This document shows, in pieces, positions 1 through 42,389 of a stretch of 44,427 nucleotides of DNA. The notes beneath the pieces are model-generated. The model made no database searches and was not told the origin of the DNA. It worked only from the letters and a program-made list of their open reading frames with translations. A program made the position numbers and the translations under genes. The stretch comes from a virus. How positions within the stretch are numbered: position 1 is the stretch's first letter; every line of letters begins with the position of its first letter. Location: positions 1 through 44,427 of IMG/VR virus record IMGVR_UViG_3300030061_001157; one strand, 5' to 3'.

Positions 1-3000
1 CATCTACTAGTGTCTCCAGTAGCCTGCTCATAAACCTCATAAGCAGTTTGAGTTTGCGGATTTGTATCAACCAGTTTTGGAATTACAGAGTCCGGTTCAT
101 ACTCAGGGACATTCTTGCGGGAGTAAGCATCCTCCATACCGGGAGGGATCGTAGAGCCTATCTCAGGGTCTCTAGCTACAGCTTGGGCTTCGGGTGAGGC
201 TTTGGTTGAATAGCGAGGAACGGCTCCTGACTTAGCTTCAGCTACGTCCTGAAGGTTCTGCTCAACAGCTTTATCAATTGCGTTCTGAGATATAGGTGAG
301 GGAGGAGGTAGCCTCTCAGAGAGAGGCGCACGAACTAGCTCTTCTACTGTTGGTCTTGCTGTGCTTTCTGGAGTAAATCCGATTCGCGCTGCTGCTTGGG
401 TGTAGGTTTCCCAGAACGGTTTATAAAGCTCACGGTCAAGGGTGTCGAATATACTGGATGATCCGGGGACGCTTCCTTGATCCCTAATTTGCCTAATGTT
501 TTCTGAATAGTTTTTCGATCCAACATAATCGCTCTCCTGATAATATGCTTGAATGTCATATTGTAAACCCGTGTCAAGAGATGTCAACAACTTAGTGCCA
601 AACTCTTCCAGCATATCTTCTGTGTAAGATGCCGCAGTGCTAGGATCAAATGTCCTGCCATCCATAAACACCAACGTGTCTGGCCTGACCGCAGTAAAGT
701 TCATACCATCTGGATCTTTCTCAGGGTTAGCTGTAGTCGATATAGCCTCTAGCTCTGCACGAGTGAAGGCAGAACCATCAGGCTTTCTGACAGCCATACC
801 GACCTGACTACCTGTTTTATATGCTGGCTTAACGGCAATCGCTGCATCTTGAAGAAGAGCATCACCCAATATACTAGTGGCAAGCAAAGCCTGTGGCTTA
901 CTGCCACCTAAAAGTTTGATCTGGAATGAAGGCTCAAGACCTTCAAAAGTTCCAGCAGTAAGTTCTATCTTGTGAGCTATGCCTAACCTTTTGAGGAAAG
1001 GTATCTCTCCATCCTTGTTAGTAATTGCATTTAGTGCCTGCTCGTGAAAGTCAAACATCTCATCTATCGTGACAGTGTCAGGAAAACCATAACCTCTGGC
1101 ATTGCCCGGATTAGCAGACACAGTGACTAGCGGCGCTCTAGCTTCAGCAAGAGCTTCAAGCTCAGGCATATTAATAAAGTTTGTGTAGGCGTTCTGCTTT
1201 ACCTTGACAGCATTGCGTGGCCTAACTCCCTTCCTGAGAGCGGGAGTAACTGATACGTTTCTATCGAACGCGCCGTCAGCAATCTGCTCTTCTATGACGT
1301 TGATCTCTTTTGCAGAATTTTTCTTAGCAGATTCCCAAGTACCAGCTCCTTCCTTTTTGTCCGGCTTTGGACTGAGGTTACTCTTGGCATAAAACCAGAG
1401 AGCAGCCTGCGCCTGATTAGGTGTGATATTGAATTCTTCTGCCAGATATGAAGTAAGATACTGAGCATATCTGTACTGCAAATCTCCGGGGATCATAGCG
1501 GTATCAACAAGGTTTCCAGTTTTCTTGTCGTAACCTTTCCTTCTGAATCCAAAAACCCTAGCCATATGAACATCTTGCACAGAGAAAGGATTAAACTTGT
1601 TCCTAGCCCTGTCCTGAATCAATTGCATATAGGTGCTAGTCTTTAAACCCGCATCGGCAAAACCTTCCTTGTACATTCTAGTAATTCGTTTTATCTGATC
1701 GCCAGTAATCTTTAGCTTCTGGCCTCCGGGCCTTGTCCCTTCAGACACTTCCTCCATAAACTTAGATGTCTGCTCAACAGGATCAATCCGTCTAGCAACA
1801 GACATAATGTGAAGTGTATCGGCTAGGTTTTGTTCGGCAGAGTTCTGCTGAGAGGTTATGCCAAAGATTACAGAGGCTTCTTCTATGTTAGCAGGGCCAA
1901 CAATATCAAGAAGACCAGAACCAAACTGGTCATACCATTGCAGATTCTCAGAACCTTTAAGTCCCTCTCTCATGTATTGACGTAATTCATCCAGAGAGAT
2001 AGCCCTTACCTCGCTATCCCTTTCATTGTCAGGAATTTTGTCACCTTTCTTATTAACCTTGCTGCGCTTTCTGGGAGCGCCGGGAACCTCAGCAAGCTGC
2101 TCAGAGGTAGGGCTACCACCAGTGGCAGAAATAAGCGCATACAATCCTCTCTCTACATCACCAATAGGCAAGACAGGAACATCCGACTCAACAGGAGGAA
2201 CAGTGACCGGAGTGCGAGAGAAGGCGAAGTCTTCCTGACTAGCTCTTATTGATTCACCAGTTGGGCTGACGTTAGCGTTCTGAGCCAGAACCAATGGGCC
2301 TATTTGTATAACCCTATCAGCGGCAACAATTGGTTCGCCGTTAGCCCTGTCGTAGAAATAAGCATGACGCTCAGGATCATAGCCAACCTGTTTCCAGTTT
2401 GTTGGCTTACCTTCCTTCATGTCTTTGAGTATTGCTCTCGATTCTTTAAGCAGAGAGGCATAAGTCTTTTTTGTTTCGGGCCTACCCTCTATGGTGGCAA
2501 AGGTATTTTTTGTAGCAGCGCCAGTCGCTACTCCGCTTGCTACTTTTCTTCCAAAGTCAGACTCTCTTCCAGTACCGAAAGAAACATCATTGACTGACAT
2601 AGCCAACTCATATCCTATAGGCGTACCAGCCTGCCCTTGAAACGCCCCTCTTCCTTCTCTAAGACGAGCAGCTCTTGGCTTATGTGCGGTAACAACCCAA
2701 GCGCCATCTCTAAGATAAGCTGGAATATCTAAACGTAGAGCTATGTACTCAAGATTTTCGTCTTCAATAGTTCTTCTGGTCTTACCAAACATTGATTTCT
2801 TGCTGTCATCAAGAGCATCTACTGCTCTCTTTTTTGTGGTAAGCAAGTTGTCCGGCAATGATTGATAAGAAGTGACAGGCTTAAACTTATTAACAACTGC
2901 ATTGCGTTGCTTTCTAGTTATCAATCCGTCTTTCAAAAGTATGGTAGAGACAGCTATCTCTGGTATCTTTAACGATACATCTTTGTGACTAAGCGCCTCT

Positions 3001-6000
3001 CTCTGAGAAAGCTCATCTCTTCTTAATGTCTTGAAAGATTTATCAAAAGTATCTCTCGGTCTTAGCTTGCCCTTTTGCTCTGGAACAGAGGCTCTGAAAT
3101 CAAGGACAGCTTTCTTAGCCTGAGCCTCCGTGACAGGGGGCTTACGTCCACGCCTTCTATTGACTTCGGGCAGCACTGCACTAACCACGCTATCTATTTG
3201 ATCAGAAAGATTAAGCCTTGCATGAGCTTGATCAGCCTGCTCTGCAACCGCTTGTATCTGACCCACCTCAAGGAAGTCACCAGACGGACGAGCTGCTCCT
3301 CTCATTACCCTAATCTGGTCATCTGATAACTGAGACTCCAAAGCCACTATATTTGGATCTGCACTAGCCTTCATCTCTGACCTTATGCGGGGTATATCTA
3401 TAGCACTTCTTTCTCTGGCTGCACCTCTGGGTGTAGTTCTGTTTCGCGGAAGAATGCCACGATCTGGGGCAACGCCTCGCGCAGCCTCTGTAGCTCTCAG
3501 AGTTCTAACTTCATCTCTGTCTCTTGCTCCAATTGTTCCCGACTCAATATCGCCAATCAATGAATCAAAGCTTGTATACCCTGTACCGCGCAAGAAACTT
3601 AGCATTGACTCAAAGAATGTCTTGATTCTCTGTATCAGAGTTCTTGGCTTGCCAGTAAATTTGTTTCTGCCGTCACGAATTAGTTCAGCTACCGCCTCTT
3701 CCATCTGGTACACGGGAGTCAGGTCACTGTATGTAGTCTGAGCAGCGTCAAGATAAGTTTGACCAAGCGAATTTTTCTTAGTTCTAGCAAGCCTTTCTAG
3801 GCTAGACCATTCATTCGCTGTCCAGAGATCAAGCATACGCATAGCGTGTACCGACTCGTGGTTAAGGAGAGACTTGGCAGTCTCAAACAGTTGCTCTGGA
3901 GTAGCACCCTCATCAGATAATTTTTGCAACCTGTCAACGCCAAAGAATACTTCGTTTAAGTTCCTTGAGTAGAGAGCTTGCTCTTGCTCAGAAATTTCAT
4001 CAGCAACAAAATTACCCTCTTGATCAAGAGTTGTAGCACCCTGATCTCTGCCGGGATCAAACCTTCTTACCCCTAAGACAAGGTTGCCATCAGCATCCCT
4101 GACAACATTAGTTAAGGCATGAAGAACACTGACCCTTACGTCACCAAGGTTAAGCTTATCCATCTCCTCCGAAAGCTGCTTCTCAAGCTGCTGTGTAATC
4201 TCCTCACTGGCGCTTGGCAATCTGCGCTCAACAGGAATGACAGTCTCTTCAGTAACCTCTACAGACTCTACGCCCTGAGCATTAAGATCAGCAGTGATTT
4301 GCTCTATCTTCTTGTCAAAGCGAGGATCAGTTTCACTAATGCCAATAGCCTCGGCTAACAACTCATTAGTGTAGTCTGGGTTCTGTCCAATATATTGAGA
4401 AGCCAGACGGAACTGCTCACTGGTATATATCTTAGGAGTAAATACAGGAAGACTAGTGGATACTTCAAAGCGCGGAAGGGATCTTAACTTAAGGTAAAAC
4501 AGTTTCATCTCAGCGCGAGACATCTTGTCCACGCCAGATTTACCTGTAAATGACTGGGCTAGAGCTTTTATCTGAGGAGAGTTAAGCTCGTCAGTTACGT
4601 TCTTAGCTTCCAATAATCTCTTGATTTCTTCACGCCCGTAAGTTCTATCCTGAAATACAAGTTTATCTACAGCTCTTCCTGCCTTAGTGTTTAAACCAGC
4701 AGCTACAGCCTGAGCTTGTTGCTCTGTCTGCATTCTTGTAGTTCTACCTAGTCCTTTCTTTTCCCTACGCTCTACTAGCGTGGTAGGTCTTTGTGTGATA
4801 ATTTCACCAGCAGAGCTAACGACTACGGGCTTGCCCTTCTTATCTTTATCAACACGATAAGTCTCTGTCTCTATCGTTGCGTCTTCTCTAACATCAGCAA
4901 GATTAGCAACATCATCACCCAGTTCTTTCTTAGCTTCTTCAAAAGTAAAGACATCAGTCTCTGACTGACCACTGCCAAGCCTGCTCCAGTTAGCTCGTTG
5001 TGATGCAGTCATAAGACTCATAGGGTTTACAGGTGCTTTACCCCTTGCAGCCAAGTTACTGATTCTTCTCGCCGCATCAATAGAGGTTTCCTGCTCATTA
5101 AACCCCTGATCAATAGTCGTGCCTGCCGCCATATTTAGGGCGTTAGACGTAACAGTATTGTTCTCTGGGTTTAGGGCAGAGTTGCCCCAGAAGGAAAGGG
5201 TTTGGAATGTAGGTTGGTCATAAGCCTGCGGCGAGGTATCAACGATATCTGACACGGAATTGGTGACAGCTCTATTGATAAGCTGATCATTGAGAGCGCC
5301 AGCAAAGACTGCTGCCTGCTCGTAATTTTGAAATGTCTTGCCGTATATCCTGCCATCAGAGTCAGTCGCTACAAATGCAGGGACTTGTTCTTCTCTTTGA
5401 ATAGTCTCGCCAGCCTGATTGGTTACAGTTCTGGTAACTGTCTCTGTTGTTTCCTGAACACCAAAGCTTGTGGTCAATGGGAAGTTCTGGCCCATATCCC
5501 TAGCTACTTTTCGTGCATAGGAAGGCATACCCTGAACGTCATCTTGGTCAGGCATTATGACTTGAGGTTCAAGGACTTCTTCACGACCTATGTTGCTAAC
5601 AAGTTCAGCTTGATCTTGTGCGGCTTGCGCGTTGGCCTCTCGTAGCTTTGTCTCATACTCTCTTTCGGTCTCACTGGAGACTCCTCTACGCCTGCCAGCA
5701 GCAGCGTTAAGAACTAGGTCAGATACAAAGCCAACAGCACCGCCTACAGTAAAGTCATCGTACAAAGACTCGCCAATTGGCAACTCTTCGTTATATATAT
5801 TCTTTTCAATCAAGTCCTGAGACAAGCCAGCAACAGCTTCTTGCACAGCTTCAACACCGCCAGTACCAAGAGCAGACTTGACTCGACTCCCGATAGTGGT
5901 AAGCACATCATCATTAACAAGATTTTTGTCTAGCTTTCTGAATAACCTTTCGACAGGAGCTAGTTCTGATAGACCAACAATAGAAGCTAAGGCAATAGCT

Positions 6001-6629
6001 GAATCTTCTTGGGCCTGACTTATCTCAATGCCAGAATCTTTAGCCATCTGGATTCTTTGTGCCTGCTCTCCAGCACCAGTTCCTGTAGCGAGAGTTGCAA
6101 CAGTCGCAGCCTCTGCTCCACTTTTAGCTCCGACTAGCTTAGTTAAACCAGTGGTTGCTTTTCCTCCATAACCAGCCAAACGAAAGGCCGCGCCGGGAGT
6201 GAGGAACGTGGCAAACGAACCTAAGCCCTCACCAAACTTGGTAGTCCACAAATCTTGATAGGCTTTGTCAGCGCCTAGTGTAGAGTTGATGGCCTCTTTA
6301 GCCTGCCTAGCTCCATAGACAAGAGCGTTCTCGTCCCCGGAATCTATGAGACCTTCAAGACCTATAGCGTTAGTGGCAGCATCAGAGAGTTCAGCAAGAC
6401 CTTCTGCTGCCGTGAGGAAGCCAGAAGCAAACCCTCTAGGCACAGCCTTAGCTGTCTCAAACATCCTTCCTGTTAGGGTGATGTTCTCTTCTTCTGGGCG
6501 CTTAGAAATAGATGGGTCTTGCCCATACATAGTCGCAGCATATTGAAGAATAGCCTGATCACTGGCTCCTTCAGGATGGTTTACACTTATCACACCGCCA
6601 TCAGGTGCGTTAACACTTGTAGTAGGCAT
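1..6629 (-). CDS. giant virion 'polyvalent' protein with zincin motif (partial, runs off left edge)
   Basis: An unbroken reading frame starts at ATG 6629 and is still open at base 1, giving at least 2209 codons. Its ATG overlaps the stop of the upstream gene (TAATG). Residues about 50-310 are Ala/Gly-rich with several weakly hydrophobic stretches, which suits a segment that could enter a membrane. A zinc-metallopeptidase motif HESVH lies at residues 924-928 (bases 3860-3846), followed by an E-E-x-x-x-E cluster at 977-982 that could supply the third ligand, as in gluzincins. Residues about 1570-1750 (FGITSQQNSAEQNL, then QAQAALWFYAKS) resemble, from memory, a segment that recurs in other giant phage proteins. 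Size, position after the tail genes and the zincin fit the large 'polyvalent' proteins thought to be packaged and ejected with phage DNA. That role is inference. I see no RNA-polymerase motif, but the C-terminus is missing. Confidence 0.88.
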   Translation of the reverse strand, partial: MPTTSVNAPDGGVISVNHPEGASDQAILQYAATMYGQDPSISKRPEEENITLTGRMFETAKAVPRGFASGFLTAAEGLAELSDAATNAIGLEGLIDSGDENALVYGARQAKEAINSTLGADKAYQDLWTTKFGEGLGSFATFLTPGAAFRLAGYGGKATTGLTKLVGAKSGAEAATVATLATGTGAGEQAQRIQMAKDSGIEISQAQEDSAIALASIVGLSELAPVERLFRKLDKNLVNDDVLTTIGSRVKSALGTGGVEAVQEAVAGLSQDLIEKNIYNEELPIGESLYDDFTVGGAVGFVSDLVLNAAAGRRRGVSSETEREYETKLREANAQAAQDQAELVSNIGREEVLEPQVIMPDQDDVQGMPSYARKVARDMGQNFPLTTSFGVQETTETVTRTVTNQAGETIQREEQVPAFVATDSDGRIYGKTFQNYEQAAVFAGALNDQLINRAVTNSVSDIVDTSPQAYDQPTFQTLSFWGNSALNPENNTVTSNALNMAAGTTIDQGFNEQETSIDAARRISNLAARGKAPVNPMSLMTASQRANWSRLGSGQSETDVFTFEEAKKELGDDVANLADVREDATIETETYRVDKDKKGKPVVVSSAGEIITQRPTTLVERREKKGLGRTTRMQTEQQAQAVAAGLNTKAGRAVDKLVFQDRTYGREEIKRLLEAKNVTDELNSPQIKALAQSFTGKSGVDKMSRAEMKLFYLKLRSLPRFEVSTSLPVFTPKIYTSEQFRLASQYIGQNPDYTNELLAEAIGISETDPRFDKKIEQITADLNAQGVESVEVTEETVIPVERRLPSASEEITQQLEKQLSEEMDKLNLGDVRVSVLHALTNVVRDADGNLVLGVRRFDPGRDQGATTLDQEGNFVADEISEQEQALYSRNLNEVFFGVDRLQKLSDEGATPEQLFETAKSLLNHESVHAMRMLDLWTANEWSSLERLARTKKNSLGQTYLDAAQTTYSDLTPVYQMEEAVAELIRDGRNKFTGKPRTLIQRIKTFFESMLSFLRGTGYTSFDSLIGDIESGTIGARDRDEVRTLRATEAARGVAPDRGILPRNRTTPRGAARERSAIDIPRIRSEMKASADPNIVALESQLSDDQIRVMRGAARPSGDFLEVGQIQAVAEQADQAHARLNLSDQIDSVVSAVLPEVNRRRGRKPPVTEAQAKKAVLDFRASVPEQKGKLRPRDTFDKSFKTLRRDELSQREALSHKDVSLKIPEIAVSTILLKDGLITRKQRNAVVNKFKPVTSYQSLPDNLLTTKKRAVDALDDSKKSMFGKTRRTIEDENLEYIALRLDIPAYLRDGAWVVTAHKPRAARLREGRGAFQGQAGTPIGYELAMSVNDVSFGTGRESDFGRKVASGVATGAATKNTFATIEGRPETKKTYASLLKESRAILKDMKEGKPTNWKQVGYDPERHAYFYDRANGEPIVAADRVIQIGPLVLAQNANVSPTGESIRASQEDFAFSRTPVTVPPVESDVPVLPIGDVERGLYALISATGGSPTSEQLAEVPGAPRKRSKVNKKGDKIPDNERDSEVRAISLDELRQYMREGLKGSENLQWYDQFGSGLLDIVGPANIEEASVIFGITSQQNSAEQNLADTLHIMSVARRIDPVEQTSKFMEEVSEGTRPGGQKLKITGDQIKRITRMYKEGFADAGLKTSTYMQLIQDRARNKFNPFSVQDVHMARVFGFRRKGYDKKTGNLVDTAMIPGDLQYRYAQYLTSYLAEEFNITPNQAQAALWFYAKSNLSPKPDKKEGAGTWESAKKNSAKEINVIEEQIADGAFDRNVSVTPALRKGVRPRNAVKVKQNAYTNFINMPELEALAEARAPLVTVSANPGNARGYGFPDTVTIDEMFDFHEQALNAITNKDGEIPFLKRLGIAHKIELTAGTFEGLEPSFQIKLLGGSKPQALLATSILGDALLQDAAIAVKPAYKTGSQVGMAVRKPDGSAFTRAELEAISTTANPEKDPDGMNFTAVRPDTLVFMDGRTFDPSTAASYTEDMLEEFGTKLLTSLDTGLQYDIQAYYQESDYVGSKNYSENIRQIRDQGSVPGSSSIFDTLDRELYKPFWETYTQAAARIGFTPESTARPTVEELVRAPLSERLPPPSPISQNAIDKAVEQNLQDVAEAKSGAVPRYSTKASPEAQAVARDPEIGSTIPPGMEDAYSRKNVPEYEPDSVIPKLVDTNPQTQTAYEVYEQATGDTSR

Positions 6630-17299: not shown

Positions 17300-17521
17300 T
17301 TACTTTTTTTCTGTATCTTCCTCTACGATAGTATCTATCGTGTCGCATACGTCAGGTACACTTATTCCTGTAGTGACCTCAGTAGCTACGCGACCTACAG
17401 CACGTACTCCTTTGTAAATTCCTGAGCAGTATAATTCCTTATTGGCTATCATATCTTCAGATACGGTACAACCTGTCAACACAAAAACCAGACTAACTAG
17501 CAGTCGGAAAATCAATTTCAT
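17300..17521 (-). CDS. small lipoprotein beside the lysis genes (possible spanin)
   Basis: A 73-residue protein with a classical type II signal: positive start MKLIFR, hydrophobic core LLVSLVFV, lipobox LTGC with C18. The mature part is acidic, with Cys at 32 and 59. The start at ATG 17521 has a GAGG site and overlaps the lipase stop by 29 bases. Small lipoproteins in lysis cassettes are often outer-membrane spanin subunits (Rz1-like). The mature part is not Pro-rich, however, and no Rz partner is obvious unless the membrane protein at 18263-18751 serves. Lipoprotein: confident. Spanin: speculative. Confidence 0.8.
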   Translation of the reverse strand: MKLIFRLLVSLVFVLTGCTVSEDMIANKELYCSGIYKGVRAVGRVATEVTTGISVPDVCDTIDTIVEEDTEKK

Positions 17522-18263
17522 CTTCTATCCTCTTTAGCTCTATGCGTTCTTTTTTACTTAAAGGAATTACTTTGTTTTCTTCTTGTTCTTGCTCTTCTAA
17601 AAATTCTTTTAAATTTTCTTTGTAACCTTCCATCATGTGATCTGTTATACGATCTTTTAATCCGCCTCGGTCAATCTTCCTATAAGGCTTAGTAGGATTT
17701 ACTACATTCGTGCCATCGTTAGAAAAGTACAGCATTGTTTGCGATTTACTAGGGCCGTAGCACAGGCGTGGTATTCTGGCAATCAAATCTGATCCCTGTA
17801 CGCAAGAGATCTGGTTATCTAAAACCATTGGTTTCTTAAAACCTTTGAAAAATACATTTGGTTTACCAAAGGTAACTAAGTTTATGTTCTCGTGTTTGCC
17901 ATTCAACATAGAGGCAGATAACTCTGCTAACGCTCCACCAAGACTATGCCCACAGATTAACGTGCGCTTCTTAGGGTCTATGTGTTCTTTGACTTTCTTC
18001 CATACAGACTTGTGTGCCAAAGCAAAACCACCGTGACATAGTCTCCCCGCATAAGGAACAGGTATAATATTAAGGTCTGTTAAAATATCTAGCTTCTGTC
18101 CGGTTCCTCGAAACGCTATGATATCTATAGACTTTCTTTTAGCTATATATACTGTGGTAGATGTCCACTTATTTTCTATTTTAATCGCGTCTTTATTGCT
18201 ATCACGATATGCCTTCATACTCCAAGAGCAAGCCATATTCAATAAAACTGGATCTAATTTCAT
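17493..18263 (-). CDS. class 3 (alpha/beta-hydrolase) lipase
   Basis: A 256-residue protein with the Lipase_3 signature. It has the oxyanion-hole strand IIAFRGTG (48-55), the nucleophile elbow GHSLGGA with S107, candidate acid D159 in GSDLIARIP, and candidate H209 in ITDHMMEGY. The C-terminal 40 residues are highly charged. No signal peptide is seen. The family hydrolyses acylglycerol or phospholipid esters. Its place immediately before the lipoprotein, holin and lysozyme suggests membrane lipid attack during lysis, or lipid use at entry. Stop and start overlap both neighbours. Confidence 0.9.
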   Translation of the reverse strand: MKLDPVLLNMACSWSMKAYRDSNKDAIKIENKWTSTTVYIAKRKSIDIIAFRGTGQKLDILTDLNIIPVPYAGRLCHGGFALAHKSVWKKVKEHIDPKKRTLICGHSLGGALAELSASMLNGKHENINLVTFGKPNVFFKGFKKPMVLDNQISCVQGSDLIARIPRLCYGPSKSQTMLYFSNDGTNVVNPTKPYRKIDRGGLKDRITDHMMEGYKENLKEFLEEQEQEENKVIPLSKKERIELKRIEDEIDFPTAS

Positions 18264-18977: not shown

Positions 18978-19202
18978 TCATTGCGTAATTACCACCGTAT
19001 CTGTGTCTTCAAAAAACAACATATTTCCCTCACAAACCATATTCCAATCAGGTTCTTCTTGTTCGCTTCTAGAAGGCACTTCTATTATTATGTGTCTAGC
19101 TAACCACTCTGTGTTGCCTTGCAGAACTCGCCAAACATGATCTTTAGTACCGCGCCCCGGTTGGCCTCGGCTTTTATTAAATCTTATACGATACTTAGGC
19201 AC
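18978..19202 (-). CDS. 74-aa conserved-type phage protein (KSRGxPGRG)
   Basis: A 74-residue soluble protein starting at GTG 19202, eight bases inside the upstream gene's end. The N-terminus MPKYRIRFNKSRGQPGRGTK, together with DHVWRV and a C-terminal MVCEGNMLFFEDTDTVVI, matches a small protein I remember as widespread in marine phages and without known function. Predicted all-beta. No ribosome site stands out, so the start relies on the conserved N-terminus. Confidence 0.75.
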   Translation of the reverse strand: MPKYRIRFNKSRGQPGRGTKDHVWRVLQGNTEWLARHIIIEVPSRSEQEEPDWNMVCEGNMLFFEDTDTVVITQ

Positions 19203-19566
19203 TAGGGCTTATAGGTAATTTAGGATCACAATCAAAGTCTGGGGACAAACAAACAGCATCTAAAGCAACTAAATAATCGTTCCAAGCAATTTTACTTTCG
19301 ACAGTTATTGCGGGGTCACTAAGTGCTGTGTTTGCAACTACTTTTTCTATGTTTATTCGTTCCACAATTTTAGAAATTCTATATTCTTTTTGCTCTGTCT
19401 CTGTAAGCTCTACCCAACCTTGATCGACAAAAGAAGAACCTACCCACGATAAGTCTCCTATTTTATCTAAAAAACCACTTAAACCAAAAATCGGCCCCCA
19501 ATTATTTGGTAACGGCCCTGCTTCGCTTAAGGGTTCGTTTGTTGACAGTTTTCTTAGTTGCCACAT
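19195..19566 (-). CDS. 123-aa putative tail-fibre assembly/chaperone-like protein
   Basis: Starts at ATG 19566 with GGAG seven bases before it, overlapping the upstream gene by 65 bases in another frame. The C-terminal half (a helix, then SKIAWNDYLVALDAV) resembles the end of phage tail-fibre assembly chaperones, where an Ala-Trp-x-x-Tyr helix is typical. This is a weak similarity by eye. The protein is acidic and soluble. Its position just after the fibre/adhesin gene supports a fibre-related job. Confidence 0.7.
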   Translation of the reverse strand: MWQLRKLSTNEPLSEAGPLPNNWGPIFGLSGFLDKIGDLSWVGSSFVDQGWVELTETEQKEYRISKIVERINIEKVVANTALSDPAITVESKIAWNDYLVALDAVCLSPDFDCDPKLPISPSA

Positions 19567-19984
19567 TTTTTTTCTCCGCTAAGACTGGATCATTTTTCTC
19601 TTTACCAATTTTCTGGTGAGGACTTATATCATTAGAAAAAGGAGCAAAACCTGCTCCGGGGAGTGCTTGTTCCCCTCGCGCATGAGCTAACTCTTCAGGA
19701 CTAACTTTCCAATCCCGCCAGCTTGCAAAATCATTTCTAGGAACTATTTGAATGTGGCATCCAATGTTTGCAGCTAATTGATTAATTAGCTCCACTACCT
19801 CTACAGGCTGATAAACATTCCACAAAAATTTACCAGAAACACCTCGCATAGTTATTTCTGTAGTACCTCCACCTGAAGTTCCTACCGTTATAGCTTGCGC
19901 TCTAGAAGCGTTTGTTTCTAAGGTTTCAAGTTGGCGAATCCTTTGTCTTGCAGCCAAGGCTTCCTCTAGTTCTTTTTCAGTCAT
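19502..19984 (-). CDS. 160-aa unknown protein downstream of the Gly-rich adhesin
   Basis: Begins at ATG 19984, one base after the adhesin stop. An N-terminal helix (residues 1-30) is followed by a beta region (TEITMRGVSGKFLWNVYQP), a helix ending INQLAANIGC, a DFASWRDW segment, and a basic Lys/Arg-rich tail. I recall similar proteins in marine phages but no assigned function. The long overlap with the next gene is unusual in this compact operon. Co-expression with the adhesin is likely. Confidence 0.75.
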   Translation of the reverse strand: MTEKELEEALAARQRIRQLETLETNASRAQAITVGTSGGGTTEITMRGVSGKFLWNVYQPVEVVELINQLAANIGCHIQIVPRNDFASWRDWKVSPEELAHARGEQALPGAGFAPFSNDISPHQKIGKEKNDPVLAEKKNVATKKTVNKRTLKRSRAVTK

Positions 19985-19985
19985 A

Positions 19986-20945
19986 TTATTGAGTATTCCA
20001 AGATATGTTTATTTGTCCCCCGGTAGGAACAACCACCGGATAGCCACCCGCAGCTACAGGAACGCAGTTAGAGGTACTTGGGTTGGCTGCGCTGCCGGGA
20101 TTTCCCGCAGAGCCACAGCTTCCTGCGTTTCCTCGACCACCGCCACCACCACCGGGAGGGCCAATTCTCTCAGGGGGGAAAGGGTTCTGAAACCCGCCTC
20201 CGCCGCCGCCACCACCGCCACCAGCTCGGCTTAAACAAGCAGCGACTCCGGGGTTTGCATCTCTTTCCCCAAAAAGAGGAGCCAGTGGGCAACCGCTATA
20301 TCCACTAGTTACCCCGTAGTTTCCTCCGGGGCCGCCTCCAGCATTGCCTCCTGCCGCAGCATTAAGGTTAGCACCTTCTCCGGTAGCTCCAGCATTACAA
20401 CGACCAGCACCTCCGCCACCTCTTCCTCCAGTTAAGCGATACTGAGGTGGGGGCGCTCCACTTCCACCGCCGCCAGCACCACCTCCCACTGTTCCAGCAG
20501 CGACTAAGGCTCCCGGCGAAGGGTTACAATTAAGACCACAAGCTCCATCATTTCCAGAATTACCAGCAGCCCCGCCTGCACCAGCATTTCCCGCTGCACC
20601 ACCAGCAAAACTAATACAAAAAACTGTAGACGCAGTTCCCGTGTTTCCAGCAGACCCAGCATTTCCCGTTGAACCCGGCCCAGCTCCTCCTGCTCCACCG
20701 CTTCCACGCCGCATGCGGGAAGGATTAGCCGCATGTTGTCCACCTTGGCCCCCGTCCCCGCCTGAACCTTCACCTCCGGCATTGCCAGAACCTCCTGCAT
20801 TTCCAGCGCCGCCCTTTCCTACAACAGTAACAATTTCAAGACCCTCTGCCGCAGTGAAAGTTCCCGGTGAGTTAAATGTACAACACCCCGCTGCTACTGT
20901 CGGCTTGCCTCCGAATAAACCTACTTTACTTGTCCCAACAGGCAT
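19986..20945 (-). CDS. glycine-rich (Gly-X-Y) putative tail adhesin
   Basis: A 319-residue protein, mostly Gly/Ala/Asn. The first 40 residues are a small beta domain (TFNSPGTFTAAEGLEIVTVV) of the kind that precedes Gly-rich regions in phage glycine-rich proteins. Then come runs of Gly-X-Y triplets (GNAGAGGAAGNSGND; GNAGSCGSAGNPG) and poly-Gly tracts, closing with a short beta end (YPVVVPTGGQINISWN). Such sequences can form polyglycine-II bundles, as known for the S16-type distal adhesin. A receptor-binding tip role is inferred. It is the last gene before four oxygenases and could be their substrate. GC content is clearly higher than in its neighbours. Confidence 0.8.
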   Translation of the reverse strand: MPVGTSKVGLFGGKPTVAAGCCTFNSPGTFTAAEGLEIVTVVGKGGAGNAGGSGNAGGEGSGGDGGQGGQHAANPSRMRRGSGGAGGAGPGSTGNAGSAGNTGTASTVFCISFAGGAAGNAGAGGAAGNSGNDGACGLNCNPSPGALVAAGTVGGGAGGGGSGAPPPQYRLTGGRGGGGAGRCNAGATGEGANLNAAAGGNAGGGPGGNYGVTSGYSGCPLAPLFGERDANPGVAACLSRAGGGGGGGGGGFQNPFPPERIGPPGGGGGGRGNAGSCGSAGNPGSAANPSTSNCVPVAAGGYPVVVPTGGQINISWNTQ

Positions 20946-20954
20946 AGTTAACTC

Positions 20955-21533
20955 CTATAATTGCGGGGAATCTAAGCCTAGACCTAGCCGCTTATCAAAT
21001 TTGTATTCGGCATATGCGCCGTTTTTGTTTATATAATGCAACATAAATTGTACGTTTATCTGACCTTCTGGCAACTTTCTTCGCCAATGGGTAGTCTCAC
21101 ATCCTTTGTATATAACAGCATCTCCGGGGTTAAGAATAAATTTTTCCGGATCGTTATTTTCATATTGCATCCATATGGGCCATACGTCACCTTTACAGGC
21201 TACGTTTACAGTAACACTAACCTCACAAGAAGGTCTGTCTGTGTGAGATTTTAACTCTTCGTTTTCTTGATATACTCTGCTATAGGAGTATGTTGGCTCT
21301 AACTCTAGCCCCGTATGCTCTTCAACAACAGGAAGGCATTCTTTTAAAATAATTTCTATAAGCGGATCAGCGTAGTACCCTAGTTTGCTTGAGTCATATT
21401 CTTCATGCTCTAACTTGGCTAACCACTCTCCACGGCGTATTTTGTTTTCAAAATATTCAGATATAGTTTTTATAGTTTGAGCATCAATTAAACTTTCTAC
21501 TTGAGTATATCCTACGTTTTGAAAGTTATTCAT
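20955..21533 (-). CDS. 2OG-Fe(II) oxygenase, copy 1
   Basis: A 192-residue protein with a double-stranded beta-helix oxygenase pattern. The metal motif is H97-T98-D99 in LKSHTDRPSCEVSVTVNV. The distal His is H149 in YKGCETTHWRR, after the strand-turn FILNPGDAVIY. The 2OG-binding base expected about ten residues on could be one of R151, R152 or K153. The family couples 2-oxoglutarate decarboxylation to hydroxylation using Fe(II). Substrate unknown. ATG 21533 overlaps the upstream oxygenase by eight bases. It lies nearest the Gly-rich adhesin. Confidence 0.83.
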   Translation of the reverse strand: MNNFQNVGYTQVESLIDAQTIKTISEYFENKIRRGEWLAKLEHEEYDSSKLGYYADPLIEIILKECLPVVEEHTGLELEPTYSYSRVYQENEELKSHTDRPSCEVSVTVNVACKGDVWPIWMQYENNDPEKFILNPGDAVIYKGCETTHWRRKLPEGQINVQFMLHYINKNGAYAEYKFDKRLGLGLDSPQL

Positions 21534-22122
21534 GATAAAACCAACCCGTTACAACATACTTAAAATTTTCACCATAGACGGGATTGCCTCTGTGAGCATG
21601 AGTAAACGCAGCAGGCCATAACAACATTACGTTTTCAACAGGATTTATTCTACGCTGTTGATATAAAAATTCTGTTTCTCCGTTAGATTCTAAGGGTAAT
21701 GTATTCAAGTAAAGCATATAAACTAACCCCCGATTAGCACCATCTCCATTGCCTTGCTCTCCGTGCCAAACATGATACCCGCCACCGCTAGAAGTTTTTT
21801 GCATTTTCATGTTGTTGCATAATATTTTAACATCTTGCAAAACAGAAAATTCTTCGCTATAAGATTGAAAACATTCCTGTAAACCTTTAAAAAATAAATC
21901 TTGCGTGTGGTTTCCTTGGAATTTTTCAAAGTTTATATTCTTTCCATTAGAAAAAATATGATAGTCGTTTTTTAAATGCTTATTTGCCCCTTCTCCAGTT
22001 TGGCGATTGTTTCCAACTCCTAATATTTTATTTCTTTCAAACTCGGCTATTAGATGTTCGCAGAAACCTTTCGGATAAACATCAGAAAAAACACCGATAA
22101 AGTCTTTATACTCAATATTCAT
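21526..22122 (-). CDS. 2OG-Fe(II) oxygenase, copy 2 (H-x-E variant)
   Basis: A 198-residue oxygenase-like protein. The metal motif appears as H120-G121-E122 in GGGYHVWHGEQ, with Glu in place of the usual Asp, a known variant in the superfamily. A distal H175 or H177 lies in FTHAHRGNPV, with K188 or nearby residues for 2OG. The core strands RGLVYMLYLN and NVMLLWPAAF fit the jelly-roll. Its start overlaps the previous gene's end by ATGA. Sequence is quite different from the other three, so these are not recent duplicates. Confidence 0.82.
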   Translation of the reverse strand: MNIEYKDFIGVFSDVYPKGFCEHLIAEFERNKILGVGNNRQTGEGANKHLKNDYHIFSNGKNINFEKFQGNHTQDLFFKGLQECFQSYSEEFSVLQDVKILCNNMKMQKTSSGGGYHVWHGEQGNGDGANRGLVYMLYLNTLPLESNGETEFLYQQRRINPVENVMLLWPAAFTHAHRGNPVYGENFKYVVTGWFYHE

Positions 22123-22721
22123 TTAAACGGCGGCCCTGAAATCCAAGATACTAATGTTTGCCGTGTCCCTTTAATTACAGGTGTTACTTGATGCAAAGTG
22201 TAAGAGGGGAAAATAGTTATCAATCCTCTTTTCTTAGGTATATTTGTAACATCGCTGTTAGTAAATAACTGTAGCTGACCACCTTCGTAATCTGCTGGGT
22301 CAGATAATTGCAAAACTATGGATAGCTTCCTAGAAGGACCGGGAGAACCAAAATCTACATGCCATTTATAGTGAGACTGTTGAGTCTCATCGTAATGAGA
22401 CAACTGTATCGGCTCTCCAAAACCTGTTAATTCAAACCCAAAATGTTCTGCGTTAATACTGGAAACTATATGTGATAATTTATCAAAAACCCAAGCATTG
22501 TTTGGTTCTATAAAAATCCAATTTAGCTTAGTGCTTCGCACGTTTTTATCTTTGAAGATACTTTTTTTGTTTTCATTATTAACTCTGCCAATATAAGCTT
22601 CTTCTACCGCCTCTTTAGCTTTTTGCTGTAACCAATTCAGCTCTTGTTCCGTAAACGCTTCATCCCACCAAGCAAACTTTTCTATTTGCCTTGTATAAGG
22701 AGTAAGTAATTGCTGCATCAA
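22119..22721 (-). CDS. 2OG-Fe(II) oxygenase, copy 3 (prolyl-4-hydroxylase/PKHD type)
   Basis: A 200-residue protein and the clearest of the four. It has HYKWHVDF with H121 and D123, then RKLSIVLQLSDP, YEGGQLQL, the distal H177 in SYTLHQVTPV, and R187 in KGTRQTLVSWI as the 2OG-binding arginine. This is the classic P4Hc/PKHD arrangement seen in PiuC-like hydroxylases. Likely reaction: hydroxylation of a protein side chain or small molecule. ATGA overlaps with both flanking oxygenases show one translational unit. Confidence 0.9.
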   Translation of the reverse strand: MMQQLLTPYTRQIEKFAWWDEAFTEQELNWLQQKAKEAVEEAYIGRVNNENKKSIFKDKNVRSTKLNWIFIEPNNAWVFDKLSHIVSSINAEHFGFELTGFGEPIQLSHYDETQQSHYKWHVDFGSPGPSRKLSIVLQLSDPADYEGGQLQLFTNSDVTNIPKKRGLITIFPSYTLHQVTPVIKGTRQTLVSWISGPPFK

Positions 22722-23296
22722 ATAAACCTTTTTCTTTGCGACAACATAAAATGAATAAACTTTGTCGGGTTATTAGATTGGTTTGGTGTAATCATGTGCG
22801 GCAGCCACGAGTTAAATAACATCATAGTCCCAGCTTGCACGTTGTCAAAATATATCTGTGGCGTTGCCATTGTAACTTGATCGCTTGGCGCTGCCCATAA
22901 ATCTGCCATCCGTTTACCCGATCTAGGATCGTCAAATATAGGATAAGAACCTCCTTCCGGTACTTCAAGAAAGTAAAACCCCGATATTTGGCTATCACTA
23001 TGTACATGCATAATGTTACTGCCAGTACAAGCAAACTCTTGCCCCCACATTCCTGATACATAAAAGTCATATTCATCTGTCAAATAACCCTGATCTTTTA
23101 AAATGCTAACACCCTTGTCTCGAAAGTAAGATGTTAGATACCCAAGGTCAGGGTCATTTGCCATATGCTCAGTCTGTTTAACTAACGAAGGTTGAATCTG
23201 ATCGTAGTATTTCTGAGTGTGCTTTAGCGTTTTATCTACCCAATTTATTCGCTCTTCGCGGTATATGAGCGATGAGAAATAAGAATAGGCTTCCAT
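22718..23296 (-). CDS. 2OG-Fe(II) oxygenase-like protein, copy 4
   Basis: A 192-residue protein resembling the putative 2OG-Fe(II) oxygenase family TIGR02466. The motif is H99-S100-D101 in IMHVHSDSQISGFYFLEVP, then GGSYPIFDDPR, and the distal H167 in FNSWLPHMITPNQ. The final strand KFIHFMLSQRKRF has basic residues that could bind 2OG. ATG 23296 overlaps the small upstream gene (TAATG). It is the first of the four in transcription order, directly after the fibre genes. Confidence 0.82.
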   Translation of the reverse strand: MEAYSYFSSLIYREERINWVDKTLKHTQKYYDQIQPSLVKQTEHMANDPDLGYLTSYFRDKGVSILKDQGYLTDEYDFYVSGMWGQEFACTGSNIMHVHSDSQISGFYFLEVPEGGSYPIFDDPRSGKRMADLWAAPSDQVTMATPQIYFDNVQAGTMMLFNSWLPHMITPNQSNNPTKFIHFMLSQRKRFI

Positions 23297-23532
23297 TAAC
23301 TATTTACAAATGTATCTAGCTCTCCCGCTAAAGTAGTTACCGAAGACGAAGTAATAGCAGTAGCTTCCGCCGCAGATTGAGTACGGCGATTTTCAACCAA
23401 TATTTCTTTAGCCATACGCAAAGTTTCTAACTTTGACCTTTTAGCTTCTTGTGTTGATTGGTTTGTGGCACGATTGTCCTCAATTGCATTTTGCAAATCT
23501 ACTTGCGCTTGTTGTTCTGCTGTTAATGCCAT
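23296..23532 (-). CDS. 78-aa helical protein between fibre and oxygenases
   Basis: A 78-residue, Ala/Glu/Gln-rich, almost entirely helical protein (residues 1-60 likely coiled coil), with no Cys and no membrane segment. It starts at ATG 23532, 26 bases after the fibre gene, and its stop overlaps the first oxygenase start. Small coiled-coil proteins in this position may be fibre trimerisation or assembly factors. No family is recognised. Confidence 0.72.
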   Translation of the reverse strand: MALTAEQQAQVDLQNAIEDNRATNQSTQEAKRSKLETLRMAKEILVENRRTQSAAEATAITSSSVTTLAGELDTFVNS

Positions 23533-23558: not shown

Positions 23559-24716
23559 TTAAGTGGTTAGATTTTTAGCTGGGAGTGTAACATACCAAGT
23601 TGTTCCGTTATCTGGCGAAAAGAAAAACCATATATCAGTTGCCGAGGCAGTAGCTGTACGGGTTACAGACCCACCGGGATACTTAAATGTACCTCCAGCA
23701 AAAGCTAAAGTACGATTAGGTGTTCCATCGTTAGTAAGAATTAATGTAAACGAAGTTGCTCTGTTGCTTATAGTATTAGGAGTCGCTAGTGTAAGCGTAG
23801 CATTACCGTTAAGTGTTGCAGTAAAAACATTTCCATCATCACAATCTATAGTTTTAGCAGTTCCTGTGTTTCCTAATGCGGTAACTTTGTCAGAAAATAC
23901 CCCAGTCATAAAACTGGTTGTAACGTCAAACTCACCTGTTCCTTTGGGAGTAAAATTAATACCTACATTAGTGTCATCACCAGTAGCAGAAAACGCTGGG
24001 TTATTTCCCGTAGCTGAGTTAGCCAGCGTAAGTTCGTTTACAGCAGATGTTGTGGCTGTAACCTTAAGCAACTCAGCATTGTTGGTATCGTTAATTCCTG
24101 TACCAACTTTAGGACTTGTAAGAGTTTTAGATGTTAATGTCTGCGTATCACTAGTTCCTACAACATCGCCACTAGGTACGGCCTTAGCACTATCTTTAAC
24201 TAGCTTTCCAGTAGTTCCATCAAAAGCTGTAAAGTTATTGTTAGTAGCACTACCCGGCCCAACAACATCGCCATCAGTAATATCTTCAACTAAGGCAAGG
24301 GCATCAAATACAGCAGCTCCTGCGCCAGCTCCGTCTAAATAAACAACTTTTGTTTTGCCAGTGGCTATTGTTATAGTAGCCCCTGAACCCTGCTTTATAG
24401 TTATGGACTGACTGCCAGTAGTAGCATTCTCTATCCACATAACCCTTGTGTTTGTATTAGGGCCAATGGTTAGCTCTCTGGTTGTCGTAAGAGATGCTCC
24501 AGAAGTAACTTTAAAATAGAGCGCACGAGCAGGGTCTGAAGCACCATCAGCTACTGTGGTAGTAGCATTAGCATCAGAAGCAAAGGCTGCTTGAGTAGCA
24601 TACCCTAGCGATTCTCCAATAAGCTCTAAATTTGTATTTGTACTTGTACCCCAAGTGCCGCTCTCGTCACCTGTAGCAATTTCTTTTAATCTTAGATTGT
24701 TTACATAAGTAGCCAT
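23559..24716 (-). CDS. tail fibre-like structural protein
   Basis: A 385-residue Thr/Ala/Gly-rich protein with the texture of phage fibres. It has a conserved-looking N-terminal YVNNLRLKEIATGDESGTWG and short beta turns such as SGDVVGTSDTQTLTSKTL, a repeat common in phage tail fibres. The C-terminal beta region reads RATSFTLILTNDGTPNRTLAF. The N-terminal GTWG segment is typical of marine phage fibres attached to the tail. The protein lacks the enzymatic motifs of depolymerases. It probably forms a trimeric shaft with the neighbouring proteins. Confidence 0.8.
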   Translation of the reverse strand: MATYVNNLRLKEIATGDESGTWGTSTNTNLELIGESLGYATQAAFASDANATTTVADGASDPARALYFKVTSGASLTTTRELTIGPNTNTRVMWIENATTGSQSITIKQGSGATITIATGKTKVVYLDGAGAGAAVFDALALVEDITDGDVVGPGSATNNNFTAFDGTTGKLVKDSAKAVPSGDVVGTSDTQTLTSKTLTSPKVGTGINDTNNAELLKVTATTSAVNELTLANSATGNNPAFSATGDDTNVGINFTPKGTGEFDVTTSFMTGVFSDKVTALGNTGTAKTIDCDDGNVFTATLNGNATLTLATPNTISNRATSFTLILTNDGTPNRTLAFAGGTFKYPGGSVTRTATASATDIWFFFSPDNGTTWYVTLPAKNLTT

Positions 24717-41441: not shown

Positions 41442-42389
41442 ATGCCTACATCAACTAAGCAAAAAAGAAATCCACAAGCTGATCTTACGCGCAAGGTCTT
41501 AAAGCAAATGAAAGAACACGGCGCGAACTGGGTTAAGCCGTGGATAGGAGTGTCGAAGGGAGCGCACCATAACCCCATCACTAAAAATTATTACACTGGC
41601 GGAAATGTTTTTATACTTTGGGTTGCAGCCGAAAAGCACGGCTTCAGCGACCCTCGTTGGTCTACATATAAGGGTTGGGAATCCACTGACACGCCTGTAC
41701 CTAAAGGTGAGAAGGCCACTGCCTATGTACAAGTGCCTATGCTCACTAAGCTCAAAGAAAAGGGTAAGCCTATGCTCGATAAAAATGGCCGCCAAAAGAC
41801 TGGTCTTTTCTTTAGGACAGTAGCCCTCTGGAATGCCGAACAGGTAGGTGCTGAAGCACTTGTAACAGTAGAGCGCGACCCCGTTGAGACTCTCGCAAAT
41901 GTTGAGGAGTTTATAGCGAACTATATATCCGCCACTGGAGTAAAGCTTGTAATCCAACAAGGCAGCGACAGAGCCTATTACAGCGCGATAAAAGACAAAA
42001 TAGTAGTTCCGGCAATCGAAGATTTTAAAGGTCACACTGAGGCTGAAAAGCAGCAGGGCTACTATGGCACTGAGCTGCATGAAATCGGACATTCTACCGC
42101 TCACAAATCACGCCTAAATCGCGCTGAGATATATGATAGAACCCCAGAGAACTATGCGAAGGAGGAATTATGCGCGGAGTTGTGTGCAGTTTTTGCCTCA
42201 GCCGCTCTGGGCATAGAGCATACGCCTGCCCCTGACCACGCGCAGTACCTCGCAAGCTGGATGAAAGCCCTTGAGAATGATGAACGACTATTCTTTAAGG
42301 CAGCAGGGAAGGCTCAGAAAGCACTGGCCTATCTGCAAGCGCAGCAGCCTAAGCCTGAAGAGGAGGATGCAGCCGAAAAGGTTGCTTAA
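41442..42389 (+). CDS. ardC: ArdC-family antirestriction protein
   Basis: A 315-residue protein with the two ArdC domains. An N-terminal ssDNA-binding domain (about 1-135) includes WVKPWIGVSKGAHHNPITKN, YYTGGNVFILWVAAEKHGFS and FFRTVALWNAEQ. A C-terminal zincin has YYGTELHEIGHSTAHKSRLN, with H213-E214-I215-G216-H217, and EELCAELCAVF (E241, E242, E246) as the third-ligand region. The known relatives protect incoming single-stranded plasmid or phage DNA from host restriction. It is preceded by the best promoter and by the AT-box. Early expression is expected. Confidence 0.92.
   Translation: MPTSTKQKRNPQADLTRKVLKQMKEHGANWVKPWIGVSKGAHHNPITKNYYTGGNVFILWVAAEKHGFSDPRWSTYKGWESTDTPVPKGEKATAYVQVPMLTKLKEKGKPMLDKNGRQKTGLFFRTVALWNAEQVGAEALVTVERDPVETLANVEEFIANYISATGVKLVIQQGSDRAYYSAIKDKIVVPAIEDFKGHTEAEKQQGYYGTELHEIGHSTAHKSRLNRAEIYDRTPENYAKEELCAELCAVFASAALGIEHTPAPDHAQYLASWMKALENDERLFFKAAGKAQKALAYLQAQQPKPEEEDAAEKVA

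Follow-up and report, generated by a model that had tools for sequence, protein, structure and literature searches.

Organization of the locus

The window, by which we mean the whole stretch of DNA analysed here, comprises the 44,427 bases of virus record IMGVR_UViG_3300030061_001157. Its minus strand carries a tailed-phage gene set that includes the terminase large subunit, portal, major head protein and virion proteins, and its terminase is closest to those of the Pelagibacter phages HTVC027P and HTVC023P and of phage DSL-LC04 (51–56% identity). The window is DNA of an aquatic bacterial virus. Positions 1–6600 include about 6.5 kb with no open reading frame (ORF) longer than 118 amino acids on either strand, followed by a dense block of minus-strand genes. 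Elsewhere in the window, positions 41442–42389 encode an ArdC-type anti-restriction protein with ArdcN and zincin-like metallopeptidase domains (PF08401, 2.7e-23; PF18818, 1.1e-34).

Within the structural block, four consecutive minus-strand genes at 20955–23296 form a cassette of 2-oxoglutarate (2OG)-Fe(II) oxygenase-type genes that would be transcribed in the order D-C-B-A. The cassette and its neighbours are, in transcript order:

23559–24716, minus strand: tail-fibre-like protein of 385 amino acids, on the upstream flank of the cassette; its place is kept in relatives
23296–23532, minus strand: 78-amino-acid gene between the fibre gene and D; directly before D in most relatives
22718–23296, minus strand: oxygenase D, of the PF13759/TIGR02466 family
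22119–22718, minus strand: oxygenase C, PF13640, resembling PKHD-type and prolyl 4-hydroxylases
21526–22122, minus strand: oxygenase B, PF13640, with an H-x-E...H motif
20955–21533, minus strand: oxygenase A, phrog_2954, an optional member
19986–20945, minus strand: Gly-rich protein of 319 amino acids, putative tail-tip adhesin and candidate substrate
19502–19984, minus strand: 160-amino-acid gene directly after the Gly-rich gene; its position is kept in relatives
19195–19566, minus strand: 123-amino-acid gene, the anchor of the unbiased scan described below

Reading frames overlap throughout the cassette, by 1 base between the 78-amino-acid gene and D (TAATG), 1 base between D and C (TGATG), 4 bases between C and B (ATGA) and 8 bases between B and A. 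The Gly-rich gene starts 9 bases past A and is preceded by GGAG. For C, the ORF list gives a TTG start at 22721; we take the ATG at 22718 because homologues begin there. The initial annotation had described four overlapping oxygenase-type genes lying between a fibre gene and a Gly-rich gene. The coordinates, the genes and the overlaps of 1, 4 and 8 bases are confirmed, and the two flanks are correct except that the 78-amino-acid gene intervenes between D and the fibre.

The 385-residue fibre protein matches two families labelled tail fiber, phrog_9017 (1.8e-6) and phrog_7760 (3.4e-5), as well as phrog_31104 (2.3e-16). At the other end of the block, the neighbourhood of the 160-amino-acid gene makes an accessory or chaperone role possible. 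The 123-amino-acid gene may encode a tail-tip assembly chaperone, judging from a weak Phage_tail_APC match in 2 of 19 family members (best E 0.01). A class 3 lipase domain (PF01764, 1.4e-16) is encoded at 17493–18263, a few genes downstream of the Gly-rich gene, and keeps this place in many relatives.

Four diverged oxygenase-type proteins

B, C and D belong to the 2OG-Fe(II) oxygenase superfamily by profile, and A by predicted structure. In profile searches B and C match PF13640 (1.5e-9 and 6.7e-16, respectively), D matches PF13759 (3.8e-13) and TIGR02466 (1.7e-17, above the NCBIfam cut-off), and A has no Pfam match. No two of the four show BLASTP similarity (all pairwise E values are at least 0.95), so they are not recent duplicates, as had been proposed from their divergence. 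Across relatives, identity at fourfold-degenerate sites is 0.33–0.38 and mean protein identity is 61–68%, with D the most conserved. Synonymous sites are thus near saturation while the proteins are conserved, and these are therefore old genes kept by purifying selection.

Deep alignments reveal invariant metal ligands in three of the proteins: H97, D99 and H149 in A; H120, E122 and H177, together with K188, in B; and H121, D123 and H177, together with R187, in C. K188 of B and R187 of C are candidates for the basic residue that binds 2OG after the second histidine; no such residue was identified in A. The invariance of these ligands across deeply diverged sequences argues that A, B and C are probably catalytic. 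The initial annotation had assigned an H-x-D/E...H site to all four proteins, which is borne out for A, B and C but not for D. In D, H97, H99 and H167 are invariant and position 179, a candidate for the 2OG-binding residue, is K or R, whereas the aspartate of the window's H-S-D is D, N, S or G across relatives; because it is replaced in this way, the H-x-D...H motif of D is nominal. The D family as a whole keeps an H-x-H...H pattern and does not conserve the acidic ligand typical of the 2OG oxygenase triad. It is possible that D has a three-histidine metal site or another ligand set.

The solved homologues of D (3bvc and 2rg4, in TIGR02466/PF13759) share the H-x-H pattern and are uncharacterised bacterial proteins, from which no function can be transferred to D. 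For C, the nearest solved structures by sequence profile are PKHD-type hydroxylases and prolyl 4-hydroxylases, a set that includes PiuC (9ghl) and Sbal_3634 (3dkq) and to which C is related in sequence and similar in its ligands. Sequence-profile searches of the PDB with A, B and the Gly-rich family gave nothing useful, and profile comparison of D against A or C was uninformative.

A was characterized through its predicted structure. Its AlphaFold model (pLDDT 93.6, pTM 0.90) has as best PDB match the Pseudomonas putida prolyl 4-hydroxylase, followed by PHD2 and other 2OG enzymes (E down to 2.8e-9, TM-score about 0.7), even though A is only 8–16% identical to these fold matches (P. putida enzyme, 4iw3/4j25; PHD2). 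A prolyl-hydroxylase-like fold is therefore confidently predicted for A. By sequence, A matches phrog_2954 (3e-46), and its PHROG families carry the label ferrochelatase. That label is wrong, because the fold of A is that of 2OG oxygenases, and A has no Pfam or NCBIfam ferrochelatase match. The same label, through phrog_2954 and phrog_3531, recurs for relatives of A in many cyanophage and pelagiphage records and looks like a propagated error.

The Gly-rich protein

In the product of the gene after A, 32% of residues are glycine; the ends of the protein are conserved and its core varies. The AlphaFold model (pLDDT 87.7) places strands close to the two termini and leaves the middle almost without them. 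Fold matches in the PDB are weak (E 0.07–0.29) and include the Bxb1 tail tip and the Pam3 fibre; matches in BFVD are Gly-rich phage proteins (best E 1e-4, low TM-scores). Weak as they are, the fold matches point to phage tail tips, and we treat the protein as a putative tail-tip adhesin. A Pfam search with 52 family members and a tblastn search of phage records with the window protein each returned no match. One relative (L316) has a block with two or three Gly-rich genes; downstream it encodes another Gly-rich ORF, of 441 amino acids and 19% proline.

A collagen identity for the protein was considered and rejected, as its Gly-X-Y tracts are short (15–27 residues), only 24 of its 319 residues are proline, and no collagen profile matches it. 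The initial annotation had doubted collagen-type hydroxyproline on similar grounds. The protein is indeed not collagen-like, but the doubt carries less weight for the enzymes, given that prolyl and PKHD-type hydroxylases are the closest fold matches or solved relatives of A and C.

Linkage between the cassette and the Gly-rich gene

Scanning viral contigs with each protein, anchored on the oxygenases, recovered a fixed block consisting of the fibre gene, the 78-amino-acid gene, D, C, B, sometimes A, the Gly-rich gene, the 160-amino-acid gene and the 123-amino-acid gene. Because they are anchored on oxygenases, such scans are blind to a Gly-rich module that lacks them. An unbiased scan was therefore anchored on the downstream, chaperone-like 123-amino-acid gene, a design that selects for neither partner, with anchor identity down to 38%. 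It returned 76 loci with a Gly-rich ORF just upstream, 60 of which had enough sequence for comparison. All 60 contain the Gly-rich gene together with at least two oxygenases. D-C-B is complete in 56 loci, and the contents are DCBA (30 loci), DCB (26), CBA (2), DB (1) and CB (1). Because the contigs are related to each other, some closely enough to be near-copies, the 60 loci do not amount to 60 independent events. In this phage group the pairing of cassette and Gly-rich gene is near-obligate. The comparison of related phages proposed in the initial annotation thus came out in favour of co-occurrence, and relatives with the oxygenases far from the fibre genes were looked for in this group and not found.

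For a wider view we compared 35 representatives, hand-picked to span lineages, although a few of them belong to the same wider group. A Gly-rich ORF is present in 19 of them, with an oxygenase within 1.5 kb in 17 of the 19 against 5.1 expected under random placement, a test that is biased towards nearness because the loci are centred on oxygenases. Exceptions include HTVC027P, S-SCSM1 and CRP-810, whose examined stretches contain oxygenases but lack a Gly-rich ORF; in HTVC027P, S-SCSM1 and others the oxygenases adjoin fibre genes. Members of the same oxygenase families are also encoded at a distance from the fibre genes in some phages, and next to unrelated genes in bacterial chromosomes.

A is present in 32 of the 60 loci, about half. 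Its presence requires 5 changes on a tree of the conserved ends of the Gly-rich protein, which has few columns, against 9 on the D+C+B tree. Such a pattern would be expected if A were matched to a particular type of Gly-rich protein, although linkage alone could explain it because A and the Gly-rich gene are neighbours. Outside phages, two cellular homologues of A adjoin a TPR-sulfotransferase or a glycosyltransferase gene, each with a C-like oxygenase alongside (bacterial contigs L210:3248-8986 and L206:4784-7561, respectively). These neighbourhoods are possibly cellular surface-modification operons. Other cellular homologues of A adjoin housekeeping genes such as mutS.

Proline content of the Gly-rich protein

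In a first set of 63 Gly-rich proteins, no residue was more strongly associated with A than proline, which made up 8.4% of the core in loci with A and 5.7% in those without. Phylogenetic regression on this set gave p = 1e-9 with the D/C/B tree and 2.7e-6 with the Gly-rich tree (0.0012 and 0.045, respectively, under a Brownian model), and a test by independent pairs was underpowered. Three loci (L133, L135 and L084) are exceptions to the association. In an independent later sample (10 versus 4 proteins), proline content did not differ (6.6 versus 6.8%, p = 0.73), and MPAG-type proteins likewise show no difference (7.0 versus 7.2%). We discount the correlation because it is absent from both the independent sample and the MPAG-type proteins, and proline content was accordingly rejected as evidence that proline is the substrate of A.

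Comparison with known systems

The initial annotation regarded four oxygenases in a row as unusual, a view that does not survive comparison with cultured marine phages, in which runs of three to six near tail genes are common. There are three together in HTVC033P, three plus one in HTVC023P, five or six in Mosig EXVC030M and five in HTVC008M; S-SCSM1 has four and three on either side of its tail-fibre genes, and S-PM2 has several after the short tail fibre. The S-SCSM1 genome is reported to contain 24 oxygenase genes (PMC9602691). All six phages resemble the window in having several diverged, consecutive 2OG oxygenases in the tail region, A-, C- and D-type proteins included, and in HTVC033P, HTVC023P and Mosig Gly-rich ORFs are adjacent or nearby. 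The orders and numbers of genes in these runs differ from those of the window, however, and none has the fixed D-C-B-(A)-Gly block. The enzyme families are known ones in a conserved cassette; the novelty lies in the close bond between that cassette and the Gly-rich gene.

Possible counterparts of the Gly-rich protein are S16 gp38 and Pam3 gp24, which likewise combine a Gly-rich variable core with a conserved frame and have chaperone-like genes alongside. Neither has a sequence match to the window protein, and the fold match to the Pam3 fibre is not significant. Pam3 gp24 is described as having a Gly-rich receptor-binding domain and a dedicated chaperone, and the parts of that description available to us mention no oxygenase cassette, unlike the window (PMC9608196). 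Prolyl hydroxylase and collagen in viral tail fibres are mentioned in general terms in PMC9301287. In the literature accessible to our search, which covered few subscription journals, we found no paper linking an oxygenase cassette to a Gly-rich tip gene.

A virus of a eukaryotic alga reportedly encodes a protein hydroxylase, with evidence for 4-hydroxyproline in viral proteins. It parallels the activity proposed below as a viral protein hydroxylase and differs in coming from a virus of a eukaryotic alga; to our knowledge no tail-tip cassette is associated with it.

Possible functions of the cassette

Our best explanation, to which we assign about an even chance of being right, is that a late, coupled D-C-B-(A) cassette oxidises side chains of a protein of the same phage, the Gly-rich tail-tip protein, most likely by hydroxylation. 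D, C, B and the optional A would be translationally coupled and expressed late in infection, and the enzymes would be active and act before or during assembly. They would modify the adjacent Gly-rich protein and not the fibre or a host molecule, with proline a leading candidate residue for A and C, and the modification may affect tip stability or receptor binding. The proposal draws on the order and overlap of the genes, their families, the metal ligands conserved in A, B and C, A's predicted fold and the near-obligate co-occurrence of the cassette with the Gly-rich gene. A more specific form, in which core D, C and B and an allele-matched A each hydroxylate the hypervariable Gly-rich tip and receptor binding or tip stability depends on that chemistry, is tentative, and we think it somewhat more likely to be wrong than right.

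The initial annotation had already suggested a tip-hydroxylation module, and the part of that suggestion that stands is the attachment of the cassette to a putative virion tip (60/60 loci; 17/19 representatives). The overlapping frames inside the structural block, the prolyl-hydroxylase-like fold of A, the kinship of C with PKHD-type and prolyl 4-hydroxylases, the smaller number of changes of A on the Gly-rich tree, the purifying selection on these old genes and the weak likeness of the Gly-rich protein to tail tips also speak for tip hydroxylation. Against it are the phages with oxygenases near fibres and no Gly-rich ORF, the occurrence of the same families elsewhere, the lack of a conserved acidic ligand in D and the absence of the proline association from the independent sample. 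The first of these observations would suit enzymes that instead modify a host surface molecule (a glycan, lipid or outer-membrane protein), for example blocking superinfection, and that lie in the fibre region since receptor-related genes are exchanged together. The two cellular A homologues found with a C-like oxygenase beside sulfotransferase and glycosyltransferase genes point the same way. Such a role nevertheless seems unlikely to us: the cassette stays with a single structural gene and shares bases with structural genes, and in relatives it is accompanied by neither a glycosyltransferase nor a transporter.

Phage 2OG oxygenases have been proposed to act in DNA repair or in 2OG and nitrogen control, notably in cyanophages (PMC3037559, PMC9146016). 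The four genes might accordingly be accessory metabolic or DNA-repair genes, or might alter nitrogen signalling by consuming 2OG, and lie in a variable region by the fibres with no link to the tip; some oxygenase runs are indeed found near uvsW-type helicases and away from fibres. In the 60 loci, however, the cassette has one place and one order, unlike freely exchanged accessory genes, and it sits among structural rather than replication genes. We consider this reading improbable and rank both DNA repair and 2OG drainage below tip hydroxylation. There is still less reason to think that some or all of the four proteins have no catalytic role and serve as parts of the fibre or in its assembly, with the double-stranded β-helix fold put to a new use. 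D would suit such a role in having no conserved acidic ligand, and fibre chaperones with β-sandwich domains exist, Pam3 gp25 being one (PMC9608196), but deeply diverged sequences keep the metal ligands of A, B and C unchanged, and H-x-H...H is likewise invariant in D, which makes the idea very unlikely.

Among the genes of marine phages that still lack an explanation, those for 2OG oxygenases rank with the most common. A cassette of fixed form that stays with a single structural gene provides a concrete candidate substrate for part of this puzzle. If tip hydroxylation is correct, host recognition can depend on hydroxylation of the tail tip, and predicting hosts from sequence would overlook that layer.
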